Source of the DNA: a bacterium
Lineage (GTDB): Bacteria > Joyebacterota > Joyebacteria > Joyebacterales > Joyebacteraceae
Length of the DNA: 39,287 nt
Direction: 5' to 3'
NCBI GenBank assembly: GCA_025774545.1
Contig: JALGVU010000020.1
Coordinates: 1-39,287, forward strand
Position numbers and translations under genes: made by a program. The stretch's first letter is position 1, and each line of letters begins with the position of its first letter. Below, piece by piece: positions 33,806 to 39,287 of this stretch. The notes under the pieces were generated by a model. It was not told the DNA's origin. It made no database searches and saw only the letters and a program-made list of their open reading frames with translations.

Positions 33806-35915
33806 CTACGCCCCTCTGCTTTCGTGAAGCCGTGCCTCGGCGCCGGCGTGCGGAAGCCGAACCGTGAACACCGATCCCTCACCCGGCTGGCTCTCGACCT
33901 CGATCTGTCCGCCGTGGTCCTTGACGATGCCGTAGCTGACCGCGAGCCCAAGCCCGCTACCGTCTCCGGTGTCGTGCGTCGTGAAGAAGGGCTCGAAGAC
34001 CCTGCCGAGATCCTCCGCGGAAATGCCGCAGCCGCTGTCGGTGAAGACGATCTCGACGCTCGCGTTGCCCCGGGCGTCGACCGCCCTTGCGGCGCAGATC
34101 GTCAGCGTCCCTCCGCTCGGCATCGCGTCGCGGGCGTTCAGGATGATGTTCGCGAACACCTGCCGCAGCTGATACTGGTCGCCCGTGACCTCCGGCAGGG
34201 CCTCGTCGACACGCTGCTCGAGTTTGATGCCCCTCATCCCGAGCTGGTGCTCCGTGATGTGGATCGCTTCGACGAGGACGTCGCTCACGCTGATCTCGGT
34301 GAACGAGCCCTGCGACGACCGAGAGAACGTCAGAAGGCTCTGGACGATGCTGCGGCACCGCTGCGACGCCTGCTCGATCGAGCCCAGGTGCTTGACGAGC
34401 TTCTCGACCTCCTCGGGGCTCAGTCCGCCCTTGCCCCTCGAGATGATCCGCTCGAGATCGTACTGCGCGTATCCCAGAATCCCGCCGAGCGGGTTGTTGA
34501 GCTCGTGCGCCACCCCGGCGGCCAGCTCGCCGACCGCCGCGAGTCGTCCGGACTGAACGACCTTCTCCTGCATCCTCTGGAGGTCGCGGGTTCTCTCCTC
34601 GACACGCTGTTCCAGATCCTGATTCAGTGCCTCGAGGTCGGCCCGGGCCTTCTGCAGCTCGGCCGTTCGTTCCTCCACCTTCTGCTCCAGGGTCTTGCCC
34701 CAGCTTTCCACCTTCGTCTTCGCCTCGTCGACGTTCTCGTAGAGCCGCGCGTTCTCGAGCGCGTGCGCGACCTGGCCGCCGATGGTGACGAGGAGTTCGA
34801 CGTCCTGCTCCCCGAACGCCTTCGGCTCGCGGCTCTCGATCGCGAGCACCCCGACCAGCCTGTCGCGCGCGAGCAGGGGGATTCCGGCCCACGCGCGCGG
34901 CTCGACTCCTCTCGACTTCGCCATGCTTGCGAGCCGGCTGTCGAGCTCGCGCGTCTCCGTCTCGTCGGCGATGTCGGCGACGAGCAGTGTCTCGCGGTGC
35001 GCGATGACCCACCCGGCGAAGGTGTTGCCGGGCTTGCTGCGCCGGTGCGCGATGACCCACCCGGCGAAGGTGTTGCCGGGCTTGCTGCGCCACGCCGGGA
35101 TGCGCTTCGTCCCCTCGATGCAGACCCGGTAGTCCAGGTCGCCCTTCTCCTCGTCGTAGAGGCAGACCGTGACCATGGTCGAGCCGAAGAGCTCGCGCGT
35201 GCTCTCCTCGAGACGCACAACCAGTTCGTCGAGTCTGAGCGTCGAGGAGACGGCCTGCGCCGTGGCGTTGATCGTGTCGAGGTCGCGGACGTGGCGCTCG
35301 AGTGTCTGTTTCGTGCTCCAGAGCGTCTTGCCGGCGGCGCTCGAGACGAGCAGCACGACCACAAGGAGCGGGAACGTCGCAGAGCCGCTCGGCATGTACG
35401 CGGCCGCAAGCAGGAGCGACAGTGGCAGAAGCGCGATCTCCACGACGACCCCGCGTCCCTTGAGCCACCGAGCGTAGCCGCCGACCGTCTTCCGGCGCTC
35501 CGACGCCATGATCCAGTGCGCCACGACGCCGGCCGCGCTGTAGGTTCCGAACATCCCGAGGAAGCGGAGCGCGTCGGCCAAAGTGAGGTCGCCGCTGAGC
35601 GGCAGCCCACCGGTCAGGACGTAGAACGTGCCCGCGGCGAAGACCGCGAGCACCTGCGTGCTGACCTCGACGACCGCCCGCCGGCTCATCCCCTTGAAGC
35701 AGGTGAACTCTCTTCTTGCCTATCGGAAACGCGAAGAGCCCGGTCGCCAGACCGAGCGCGCTCATGATGCCGATCGCGCCCCAGTCCATCCAGTCCGTCT
35801 GGAGCACCGCGAGCGCCAGGAAGAGCGCGGCCGCCGCCGCGCCCCGGATCCAAGCCCGGCCGCCGGCCGGGCGCTCGCAGACCGTCTGATTCCTCGCCAA
35901 TTCCTGGGCGTGCAT
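33806..35915 (-). CDS. Membrane GAF-histidine kinase, frameshifted near the N-terminus
   Basis: Two frames together make one kinase. The first runs from ATG 35915 (MHAQELARNQTV) through two hydrophobic helices to GLFAFPIGKK. Near 35707-35716, in an AG-rich run, the frame changes; the second frame continues EFTCFKGMSRRAVVEVSTQ with four more membrane helices. A GAF domain (about LDTINATAQAVSSTLRLDEL to HALENARLY) and a coiled coil follow. HisKA has LAAVGELAAGVAHELNNPLG with the phosphorylated His, and HATPase has IILNARDAM, DSGCGISAEDLG and GSGLGLAVSYGIV. The intact part ends at 33806 and starts at an internal ATG at 35689. A perfect 48-bp duplication lies in the GAF part. It is preceded by a sigma-54 promoter, and the GGDEF regulator follows. 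Confidence 0.85.
34995..35090. repeat. Perfect 48-bp tandem duplication in the GAF domain
   Basis: Copies 34995-35042 and 35043-35090 are identical. In the kinase they encode RSKPGNTFAGWVIAHR twice in a row. GAF domains normally have this strand-helix segment once (WR-SKPGNTFAGWVIAHRET). The duplication is in frame, so the kinase remains open. Identity implies a recent event or an assembly or read artefact. Confidence 0.95.
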
Positions 35916-36217: not shown

Positions 36218-37060
36218 TCACTCGCCGTCTGGTCGGTCGTGCGTCACGAGCTCCAGCTCGAGTTCGAGACGGCCACCGTCAAGGTCGATGCCCGACAGGA
36301 CGACCGTGTTCCTCCCGATCTCGAGCGGCCACGGGCCTATCCGGCCCTCCGGGTCCGGCGACTCCGGTCCCCTGGTGGATCCGGGCGTGCGGAGTGCGAC
36401 CGAGATCGCCCGCGCCGGCTTCCCGTCCGCCGTCACTCGGGCGATCAGGGTCGGCGCCCCTTCCCGGAGCCGCACGCGGCCCTCGAGGGCGATACCGCCG
36501 CTCCCCACCCACGAGAGACGGATCTCGCCGGGCTCCGCCCTGGCCGCGGCGGCGAGCGGCGTCTCGGACACAGGGAGCAGGCCGGCGCCGAGCGCCGCCG
36601 CCCCCGAGCGCGCGAAGTCCGTCACGACCGTGAGGGTCCGCTCGGCGATACGGACGACGGCGCTCCGTCCCTCCCTCTCGAGACGGCCGAGCACCCGATC
36701 GACCGCGCGGTCGGGTCCCCGCTCCGCCGCGCCGTCGGGTGAGCGCCAGAGATCGGCGAGGAGGGCGGAGCACGACGGGCATCGCGCGAGGTGGGCCTCG
36801 ACCTGCGACGCCTCCCCCGCAGCGAGGGTCCCGTCGGCGTACCCGGACACCCGCTCCGATTCACGACACGACGCGGCCTCCTCGGGCGCGCCCCGGACCG
36901 CCCCGCGGAGCGCCTCCGTGAGGCGTTCGAGCGCGCGCACGCGCGCGCCGCAGTCCTCGCACGTCGCGACGTGACTCTCTACCCTCTCCCGATCCGATCC
37001 CCCGAGCGTTCCCTCCACCAACCGGAGGAGCTCGCCCTCGGAGGGACACGTGCTGCGCAT
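36218..37060 (-). CDS. Double zinc-finger anti-sigma factor with beta-rich C-terminus
   Basis: The 280-residue protein has two zf-HC2 modules with the same spacing: C5...H30-x3-C34-x2-C37 and C65...H90-x3-C94-x2-C97. This is the H-x3-C-x2-C signature of zinc anti-sigma factors that clamp ECF sigma factors. The rest (about 110-280) is predicted mostly beta (EIRLSWVGSGGIALEGRVRL, RNTVVLSGIDLDGGRLELEL) and has no clear membrane helix, so it is probably cytoplasmic. The ATG at 37060 has AGGTGAG upstream; a GTG at 37069 overlapping the sigma stop is an alternative. It follows the sigma gene directly and is most likely its regulator. What the beta domain senses is unknown. Confidence 0.85.
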   Translation of the reverse strand: MRSTCPSEGELLRLVEGTLGGSDRERVESHVATCEDCGARVRALERLTEALRGAVRGAPEEAASCRESERVSGYADGTLAAGEASQVEAHLARCPSCSALLADLWRSPDGAAERGPDRAVDRVLGRLEREGRSAVVRIAERTLTVVTDFARSGAAALGAGLLPVSETPLAAAARAEPGEIRLSWVGSGGIALEGRVRLREGAPTLIARVTADGKPARAISVALRTPGSTRGPESPDPEGRIGPWPLEIGRNTVVLSGIDLDGGRLELELELVTHDRPDGE

Positions 37061-37065
37061 GCCGC

Positions 37066-37704
37066 TCACCTCTCTTCCCAGTGCCTGGCGACGCCGCCGT
37101 CCCGCCGGAGCTTAGCGAGCGCCCGGTAGACGAAGCCGCTCATCGCTCCCACCGTCATGCCCAGTCGATCGGCCACCTCGCGGTACGTGAATCCCTCGAA
37201 GTAGATGAGCCTCACGACCAGCGCCTCCTTCGGCGAGAGCGTTCGCTCGATCGCCTGATCGAGCGACATCCGGAGGTCCCGGCGTCCGACGTCGCTCGCG
37301 GTCGACAGGGCCGTGGAGCGGTCCGGCTCGCCGTCTTGCTGCCCCGGCTCGTCGCACTCGCGCCGGTGGACCTGCTTCCTGAGCGTGTCGACGCAGACAT
37401 TGCGCGCGATCCGATAGATCCATGTCTCGAGTTTGCACTCGCCCTTCCACGAGGCGAGCGCCTTCCCCCGTCGTCGGACGAGCTTGAAGAGCGCCTCCTC
37501 GAAGATCTCCTCCATCGTCGTCTCGTCCCACTGGGCGTGGAAGCGGGCGTTGGCTCTCACGATCGCACTGTAGATGAGCCGGCGGTAACGCTCGATGAAC
37601 TCTGCCCAGGCGTCGGAGTCGCCGGCCGTGAGTCGCTCGACCAGTTCGATGACGTCGCGATCGATGTTCTTCCTCGTGGCCACGAAGGAGATCTCCTCGC
37701 TCAC
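37066..37704 (-). CDS. ECF-type RNA polymerase sigma factor
   Basis: The 212-residue sigma-70 family protein has region 2 (FIERYRRLIYSAIVRANARF, then ETWIYRIARNVCVDTLRKQ) and region 4 (RTLSPKEALVVRLIYFEGF, TYREVADRLGMTVGAMSGFV) with the helix-turn-helix. No regions 1 or 3 are present, as in the ECF class. The linker is arginine- and glutamate-rich. The frame starts at a GTG (37704) with weak GGAG. A second GTG at 37683 has AGGAG at a better distance and may be the true start. It lies between the CHAT protease gene (68-base gap) and its likely anti-sigma. No convincing autoregulatory ECF promoter was found in that gap. Confidence 0.9.
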   Translation of the reverse strand: MSEEISFVATRKNIDRDVIELVERLTAGDSDAWAEFIERYRRLIYSAIVRANARFHAQWDETTMEEIFEEALFKLVRRRGKALASWKGECKLETWIYRIARNVCVDTLRKQVHRRECDEPGQQDGEPDRSTALSTASDVGRRDLRMSLDQAIERTLSPKEALVVRLIYFEGFTYREVADRLGMTVGAMSGFVYRALAKLRRDGGVARHWEER

Positions 37705-37771
37705 TCCAACGGTCGTCTCGGGGGTCCTGGTTCTTCGCGGAAGTTCGCGGTCAGGTGGTCCGGCCGCAGGG

Positions 37772-39196
37772 TCAGCGCGGCCGCCCGGGAACGAGGCGGA
37801 GCGTCGGATCGCCGTAGAGCACGTAGTTGGCCCACGCCAGCGGATGCGCGCCGAAGAGGGCGGACCTGGCGGCGCTCACCGCCTGCGCGAGGGTGCTCCC
37901 GCCCACGAGCGCGCGGTAGAAGGCGTCCGCGAAGGCGGCGCTACCGGCGTCGTGCAGGTCCCAGTTCGTGCCGACGTACGCGGCGACGCCCGCCTCGAGG
38001 AAGCGACGGGCCGGGCTCTCCCCACCTCCCCAGACACGCTCGGGACCCGAAGAGCACGCGTTCGCGAAGACCAGGACGGGGGGGCTCCCCTCACCGAGCG
38101 CCTGGTCAATGGGGCCCGCGGGCTCCCCGTTGCCGAGGACCCACGCGGCCTCGCCGCCCTCGCGCGACGAATGTCCCGCGAAGTGAACGACGTCGTAGCC
38201 CTGCCCGATCAGGAGGCCGAGCTCGCGCGCCGACGCGGGCGACTTGCGCTCCACCCGGAAGACGTCGGGCCGCGCGGCGGCCAGATCAAGCAGAAGGGCC
38301 GCCTCACGCTCGGCGTCCGGCAGGTCGCGTCCCTCCCGTCCCGCCTCGAGGTTGGCCAGAAGGAGGACGCGCAGCGGTCCCTCGGCGCGTCGCGGGCTCC
38401 TCGGCGCCCCCTCGCAGCCGCGGATCTGGCGCGACACGTCGAAGAGCTGCCACAGGAACTGACCGCCGCGTCTCGGGACGAGGAGCTCCCACGGGATGCC
38501 GAGAAGCTCGGGTTGCACGCGGAGGAGCAGGTGATCGCCATGGAGGTCCGCGATGCGAGCGCGCGCGTCGGGCGCGGGCCCGAGAAGACGCTCCCCGATC
38601 GCCAACCCCAGTGAGTAGACGGCGCGACGGGAGGCGTCGATCTCCTCGCGCCCGGCGTGGAGCGTCCCAGCCTTCGCGCCGCGATCCTCGCCGAACGAGA
38701 CGCTCCTTCGGGCCAGATCGGCGAACTCCGACAGGAGCCTCTCCTCTTCCTCGGGAACGCGATCGACGACGAAGTCGCGGACGGCGGCGGCGCGCGTGTC
38801 CGACACGACGATCGTGAGCTTCCCCTCTGGCTCGGCGCGGAGATGGACGTCGGGCGCGAGGGTGGCCGGGAGAGCGTCCGCGCGCCTCCTCGGCCGCCTG
38901 AGCGACGCTGCGGCAAGCAGGACGGCGGCGACGGCGAGCGCGGCCATCCACACGGGCTTGAGGAACCCCTCGACCGCTGAGGTGATCGCGCCGTAGAGCG
39001 CGGCCCGCTCACCGAACGGGAGCGTCCTGAGAAGCACCCACAGGACTTCGTCGTCCGGCCAGTCGACGCTTGTTTCGAAGCGACTGCCGCACGAGACGCA
39101 GCCGTGCGTTCTGACGACGCGACGATCCCCGCGGTGCCAGCTCTCGCTCTCGATCTCGGTCCGCCCCCCGCAGCGGGGGCAGCGACCCCGTGTCAC
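37772..39196 (-). CDS. Membrane-anchored zinc-ribbon CHAT-domain protease
   Basis: The 474-residue protein has three parts. A zinc ribbon has C6-x2-C9 and C33-x2-C36. One membrane helix lies at about 81-98 (PVWMAALAVAAVLLAAASL), followed by a basic stretch. A CHAT domain (about 200-470) carries the caspase-like dyad: His in YDVVHFAGHSS (H338/H342 region) and Cys in VLVFANACSSG (C381). The end, YVGTNWDLHDAGSAAFADAF and WANYVLYGDPTLRL, is typical of CHAT. No TPRs are present, unlike most CHAT proteins. By charge the ribbon and CHAT domains would lie on opposite sides, or a hairpin is needed; topology is uncertain. The GTG start overlaps the previous gene (GTGA) with GAGGT upstream. The protease is the first complete gene of the sigma operon. 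Confidence 0.88.
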   Translation of the reverse strand: MTRGRCPRCGGRTEIESESWHRGDRRVVRTHGCVSCGSRFETSVDWPDDEVLWVLLRTLPFGERAALYGAITSAVEGFLKPVWMAALAVAAVLLAAASLRRPRRRADALPATLAPDVHLRAEPEGKLTIVVSDTRAAAVRDFVVDRVPEEEERLLSEFADLARRSVSFGEDRGAKAGTLHAGREEIDASRRAVYSLGLAIGERLLGPAPDARARIADLHGDHLLLRVQPELLGIPWELLVPRRGGQFLWQLFDVSRQIRGCEGAPRSPRRAEGPLRVLLLANLEAGREGRDLPDAEREAALLLDLAAARPDVFRVERKSPASARELGLLIGQGYDVVHFAGHSSREGGEAAWVLGNGEPAGPIDQALGEGSPPVLVFANACSSGPERVWGGGESPARRFLEAGVAAYVGTNWDLHDAGSAAFADAFYRALVGGSTLAQAVSAARSALFGAHPLAWANYVLYGDPTLRLVPGRPR

Positions 39197-39287
39197 GCGT
39201 CACCTCCCGCAAGCGGCGGCAGCACGACCACGCTGTCGGCGAGGCCGGCGCCCTCGTCGTCGCAGGCGAACACCACCACCTGGCGCT
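39193..39287 (-). CDS. C-terminal fragment of an unidentified gene
   Basis: Only the last 30 codons are in the window, reading RQVVVFACDDEGAGLADSVV to the TGA at 39195-39193. The stop overlaps the GTG of the CHAT gene, so the two are translationally coupled. The visible part looks like the edge strand of a beta fold followed by a flexible tail (LPPLAGGDA). I do not recognise it. Its position makes it a likely member of the CHAT-sigma system. Confidence 0.6.
   Translation of the reverse strand, partial: RQVVVFACDDEGAGLADSVVVLPPLAGGDA

Follow-up and report, generated by a model that had tools for sequence, protein, structure and literature searches.

A conserved CHAT protease, ECF sigma factor and double-zinc anti-sigma module in Candidatus Effluviviacota

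Main

Sigma factor systems linked to CHAT proteins are already known, with DdvA, Craspase and ECF54 as examples. In Myxococcus xanthus the ECF sigma factor DdvS is active once DdvA is inactivated (PMC4374960), and DdvA (PDB 8rlz, 8rot, 8rw5) joins zf-HC2 to CHAT within a single transmembrane chain. In the type III-E CRISPR system Craspase, Csx29 cleaves Csx30, the inhibitor of CASP-sigma (PMC10028731), and proteolysis is proposed to lift the inhibition (PMC10028731, PMC9729208). CHAT proteins are also conserved in the genomic context of the ECF54 group, for which proteolytic regulation has been proposed (PMC8999054), and EACC2-caspase systems place a caspase-like protease and an ECF sigma factor in one neighbourhood (PMC8195603). 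A literature search confined to one collection returned no paper combining 'CHAT domain' with 'zf-HC2'.

Here we describe a locus at the end of a 39,287-nucleotide contig (the window, meaning the whole stretch of DNA analysed) from an uncultured deep-sea seep bacterium, a member of Candidatus Effluviviacota. Its CHAT, sigma and anti-sigma genes are best read as a variant of the DdvA and Craspase kinds that is split into separate proteins and anchored in the membrane. As in DdvS/DdvA, an ECF sigma factor is paired with a zf-HC2-type anti-sigma, a CHAT domain and a membrane anchor, but all Effluviviacota loci have separate genes in place of the single DdvA chain. The locus further differs from DdvA in its soluble anti-sigma with two zinc modules, in a CHAT protein with a zinc ribbon and without TPR, and in an SbcD/SbcC-like gene pair. 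It shares with Craspase/CASP a CHAT protease, an ECF-like sigma factor and an inhibitor, but lacks Cas7-11, crRNA and TPR-CHAT, has a zf-HC2 inhibitor instead of Csx30 and a membrane anchor, and is a vertically inherited core locus. A Pfam search of the conserved neighbourhood genes found no Cas7-11-like or Csx30-like gene, in agreement with a first-pass annotation, made from the letters alone, which had reported no CRISPR gene here. Membership of type III-E Craspase was rejected on the absence of Cas genes and of TPR in the CHAT protein. ECF54 is set apart by its description, being regulated without an anti-sigma, whereas the present locus has a dedicated double-zf-HC2 one. The EACC2-caspase systems differ in their caspase rather than CHAT annotation and variable effector-associated domains, and no such anti-sigma is described there.

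Results

The locus is collinear on the minus strand and reads from the contig end inward:

39193..39287, minus strand: SbcC/Rad50-like ATPase gene, last 30 codons, truncated by the contig end (overlapping contig C483 and relatives)
37772..39196, minus strand: membrane CHAT protease with N-terminal zinc ribbon and dyad H342/C381 (Pfam; AlphaFold/Foldseek)
37712..37737, minus strand: candidate ECF-type promoter of the sigma/anti-sigma genes, CGAAGAA-N15-CGAC (conservation)
37066..37704, minus strand: ECF sigma factor, regions 2 and 4 (TIGR02937)
36218..37069, minus strand: anti-sigma with two zf-HC2 modules, linker and beta-sandwich-like tail (Pfam and alignment)

All four collinear elements of the first-pass annotation are present. 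Its two GTGA overlaps are present at the SbcC-like/CHAT joint (39193-39196) and the sigma/anti-sigma joint (37066-37069), and a 67-nt gap separates CHAT from sigma. The partial gene it had seen is real and, by comparison with C483 and relatives, is the C-terminus of the SbcC/Rad50-like ATPase.

The CHAT protein belongs to the CHAT peptidase family (PF12770, 93.7 bits against a curated cut-off of 24, E=1.8e-26) and begins with a zinc ribbon (C6/C9/C33/C36), followed by a membrane segment and, at the C-terminus, the CHAT domain. The catalytic motif residues of the window copy are H338/H342 and C381, of which H342 and C381 are invariant among complete orthologs. The intact His/Cys pair, the zinc ribbon and the lack of TPR (none in the Pfam search) are as first annotated; in the genus represented by L050 the ribbon has been lost and the rest of the protein kept. 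The claim that the enzyme has its own membrane helix holds for the window copy, with one predicted transmembrane segment (residues 81-99), but not for the family: at least two hydrophobic segments are predicted in 15 of 17 ortholog sequences, the window copy and L051 having one. Compared with C483, another contig of this assembly that overlaps the locus (L035 1-339), the window gene has a 75-nt in-frame deletion that removes 25 residues, the first helix. As judged from these sequences, two membrane helices are typical of the family, and the first has been lost from the window copy. Two helices would place the zinc ribbon and the CHAT domain on the same, presumably cytoplasmic, side. The absence of these 75 nt, which C483 and relatives have, could mark a strain variant or an assembly error. 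The AlphaFold model is of moderate quality (pLDDT 64), and Foldseek matched it to SAVED-CHAT, separase, Craspase (Csx29) and DdvA. The same genome encodes three more large CHAT proteins (L162 on C438, L163 on C498, L164 on C67) with apparent signal-peptide-like starts, and no ECF sigma gene was found near them.

The sigma protein is short, has regions 2 and 4 and matches TIGR02937 with E=2.4e-27, as expected of an ECF sigma factor. Nearly all orthologs share a start position that lies seven codons downstream of the annotated one; this GTG, at 37683 in the window, is probably the conserved start. The anti-sigma has two zf-HC2 modules of identical spacing, C8-H33-C37-C40 (residues ~8-40) and C68-H93-C97-C100 (~68-100), followed by a variable, poorly conserved linker and a beta-rich, beta-sandwich-like tail (~182-276). 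All eight ligands are invariant in complete orthologs, which bears out the paired modules first described, and no transmembrane helix is predicted. The gene overlaps or adjoins sigma in every genome, the context of a zf-HC2 class I, zinc-binding anti-sigma, and its product is a putative inhibitor that would bind the neighbouring sigma factor. Its profile matches the N-terminus of DdvA (8rlz) and also a CHAT protein of 991 residues (8rot, 8rw5) whose zf-HC2 sequence is identical; 8rot/8rw5 are listed in the fold search as the transmembrane anti-sigma DdvA. Matches to the ChrR/RsrA families are weak. The anti-sigma model is also weak (pLDDT 63), and a fold search with it gave no significant match.

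We searched 20 Candidatus Effluviviacota genomes, all from one family, as are the genomes in the paper describing the phylum (PMC11323493). In the loci examined, and within the reach of their contigs, gene order is identical: NifS-like, peptidase-MA, lipoprotein-like, SbcD-like, SbcC-like, CHAT, sigma, anti-sigma, histidine kinase, response regulator-GGDEF, tadA-like deaminase, dnaX, ybaB-like and recR-like. Because this order is kept across the phylum at 33–68% protein identity to the window, the arrangement is far beyond chance. The CHAT query matched in 19 of 20 genomes, including G015, where the match is a fragment of 42 residues at the edge of a contig but sigma and anti-sigma orthologs are present, and G011 (57% complete), where it is a weak match to a different CHAT protein. 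In G001 (100% complete) the SbcD-like and SbcC-like genes are followed directly by the kinase, and CHAT, sigma and anti-sigma orthologs are absent; its best sigma match scores 67 bits against >330 for complete copies, and its best anti-sigma match 34 against >300. Loss and never having gained the genes both fit this gap. As G001 lacks exactly these three genes and keeps both flanks, CHAT, sigma and anti-sigma behave as one unit. The first-pass annotation had staked its reading on relatives keeping the order and on co-occurrence; the order proved conserved throughout Candidatus Effluviviacota, with the three genes present together or, in G001, jointly missing.

C483 (L035) extends the locus to SbcC-like and SbcD/Mre11-like genes and the start of CHAT. 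Both flanking proteins score below curated NCBIfam cut-offs (SbcD-like, TIGR00619, E=1.4e-18; Rad50, NF003034, E=1.2e-30; L036) and by these profiles are distant relatives of SbcD and Rad50/SbcC, that is, an SbcCD/Mre11-Rad50-like pair. They lie 5' of CHAT in every genome, with genes overlapping or closely spaced, and hydrophobic segments occur mid-chain in the SbcC-like protein (about residues 340-380). Near its C-terminus the SbcC-like gene of C483 (L035 343-2442) differs in frame from the window copy, probably through an assembly error. On the other flank, the window histidine kinase gene (33806-35689) contains a tandem repeat of RSKPGNTFAGWVIAHR; it apparently lacks part of the N-terminal region of its relatives, which continues in another frame, suggestive of small rearrangements. 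A strong sigma54-type TGGCAC-N5-TTGCA stands ahead of the kinase/response-regulator genes in most Effluviviacota loci (L036, L037 and L039 among them). A mobile defence island is disfavoured by the core neighbours (dnaX, recR, nifS-like) and by PADLOC, which gave a weak SAVED_CHAT match to the CHAT protein alone and none to sigma or anti-sigma.

A bipartite element, CGAAGA[A/G]-N15-CG[A/T]C, precedes the conserved sigma start by 49–54 nt in 16 of 16 sequences from seven genera, in one genus inside the 3' end of CHAT. The hexamer CGAAGA is common to all 10 representatives upstream of sigma. Of these, 7 share the best exact 5+3 bipartite word, whereas shuffles reached no more than 3. The element resembles an ECF promoter and may serve as one. 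At the operon head, several genera have sigma70-like boxes (TTGACt-N17-TAnnAT) and others sigma54-like ones (GG-N10-GC), and we reject autoregulation through the head on these grounds. The first-pass annotation had suggested that CHAT might be part of the sigma regulon; since the sole ECF-promoter-like element lies past most or all of CHAT, and the head carries sigma70-like or sigma54-like boxes, we do not place it there. Genome-wide, CGAAGAA-N15-CGWC gives 18–82 matches per genome, mostly within coding sequence, on a GC-rich background; a possible intergenic site shared by two related species, ahead of a gene whose product resembles a peptidase-MA/TolB-type protein, is too weak to define a regulon.

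Similar pairings occur in other bacteria, and the arrangement is not unique. Outside the phylum, 42 CHAT-bearing genomes yielded 85 CHAT loci. In 15 of them the stretch retrieved around CHAT contains an ECF gene, which lies on the CHAT strand in 14; the usual order is ECF, zf-HC2 anti-sigma, TPR-CHAT. Arbitrary stretches totalling 400 kb, drawn from six of these genomes, contained one ECF gene, and against this conservative background the enrichment has a Poisson P of about 3e-4. Triad counts are lower bounds, as the ECF profile missed the sigma factor of L166, a further CHAT/ECF pair. One locus (L266) has the order CHAT, thioredoxin-like gene, ECF, zf-HC2, and DdvA-like zf-HC2-TPR-CHAT fusions lie beside ECF genes in two other families (L224:3508-7107, L274:5999-9208). 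By a simple pattern, His and Cys motifs are present in 12 of 15 ECF-linked CHAT proteins checked.

Discussion

The protease gene shares one block with the sigma/anti-sigma switch, an arrangement suggestive of protease control over the pair. We give roughly even odds (about 0.5) to a dedicated CHAT-gated transcription switch, in which the membrane CHAT protein disarms the anti-sigma to free the ECF sigma factor. The cytoplasmic double-zf-HC2 protein would keep the sigma factor inactive, and the CHAT cysteine protease would sit on a two-helix membrane hairpin, the zinc ribbon as well as the catalytic domain facing the cytoplasm. A signal, which may originate in the adjacent SbcCD-like complex, would activate CHAT, and the anti-sigma would be cleaved or otherwise disarmed, with the linker or the beta tail as the probable site. 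The released sigma factor would then transcribe its targets, including its own gene, from CGAAGAA-N15-CGWC. In favour of such a switch stand the shared gene order, the joint absence in G001, the invariant dyad and zinc ligands, the ECF-linked CHAT loci and fusions outside the phylum, the CHAT fold matches and the element ahead of sigma. Points against it are the poorly conserved anti-sigma linker, the models with pLDDT 63 and 64, and the window copy being one transmembrane helix short.

CHAT-dependent disarming of the anti-sigma, through cleavage or conformation, is the most likely course, and cleavage by CHAT, one of the options raised in the first-pass annotation, is plausible. DdvA has an anti-sigma module and CHAT in one chain, described in the PDB as a transmembrane anti-sigma, so CHAT could also act without cutting: it would bind the anti-sigma and hold or release sigma by conformation, with the dyad reserved for another substrate or for autoprocessing. 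The zf-HC2-CHAT fusions elsewhere fit this possibility, but a purely structural role would not need the dyad, which is invariant in complete orthologs here and kept in most ECF-linked CHAT proteins elsewhere, and we consider a non-proteolytic switch unlikely. Rather improbable is direct sensing of redox or zinc by the two zinc modules, as in RsrA/ChrR, with CHAT a co-transcribed effector acting on another substrate. Zinc-binding members are over-represented among soluble anti-sigmas (PMC7406223) and the weak ChrR/RsrA matches point the same way, but the joint absence of exactly three genes in G001 and the recurrent ECF/zf-HC2/CHAT triads tie CHAT to the sigma pair.

What would feed the CHAT-gated switch is more speculative. 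The SbcD/SbcC-like pair, ahead of CHAT in every genome and with transmembrane segments mid-chain in its SbcC-like member, might form a membrane-anchored DNA-end-processing complex through which DNA damage or foreign DNA is signalled to CHAT and thence to sigma. We hold this to be a long shot, given that G001 retains the pair without the module and that the core flanking genes speak against a mobile defence island. Quite doubtful, too, is the fuller version, a phylum-wide non-CRISPR path in which a membrane SbcC/SbcD-like complex recognizes DNA that is broken or foreign and switches the zinc-ribbon CHAT protease, which cuts the double-zinc anti-sigma; if true, it would couple DNA-end sensing to an ECF transcriptional response. 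The 'stand-alone' path of the first-pass annotation survives in being free of CRISPR, but it sits behind the conserved SbcD/SbcC-like pair and has precedent in known CHAT-linked sigma systems.

Pairing of CHAT with a sigma factor has previously been highlighted through the CRISPR Craspase and DdvA. Here it forms a vertically inherited, CRISPR-free core locus of an entire uncultured phylum, in which the protease is split from an anti-sigma with two zinc modules and the sigma gene carries its own conserved promoter-like element. The recurrent triads in other lineages suggest a general wiring scheme, and the module offers a compact, testable system for the control of bacterial transcription by a caspase-like protease.
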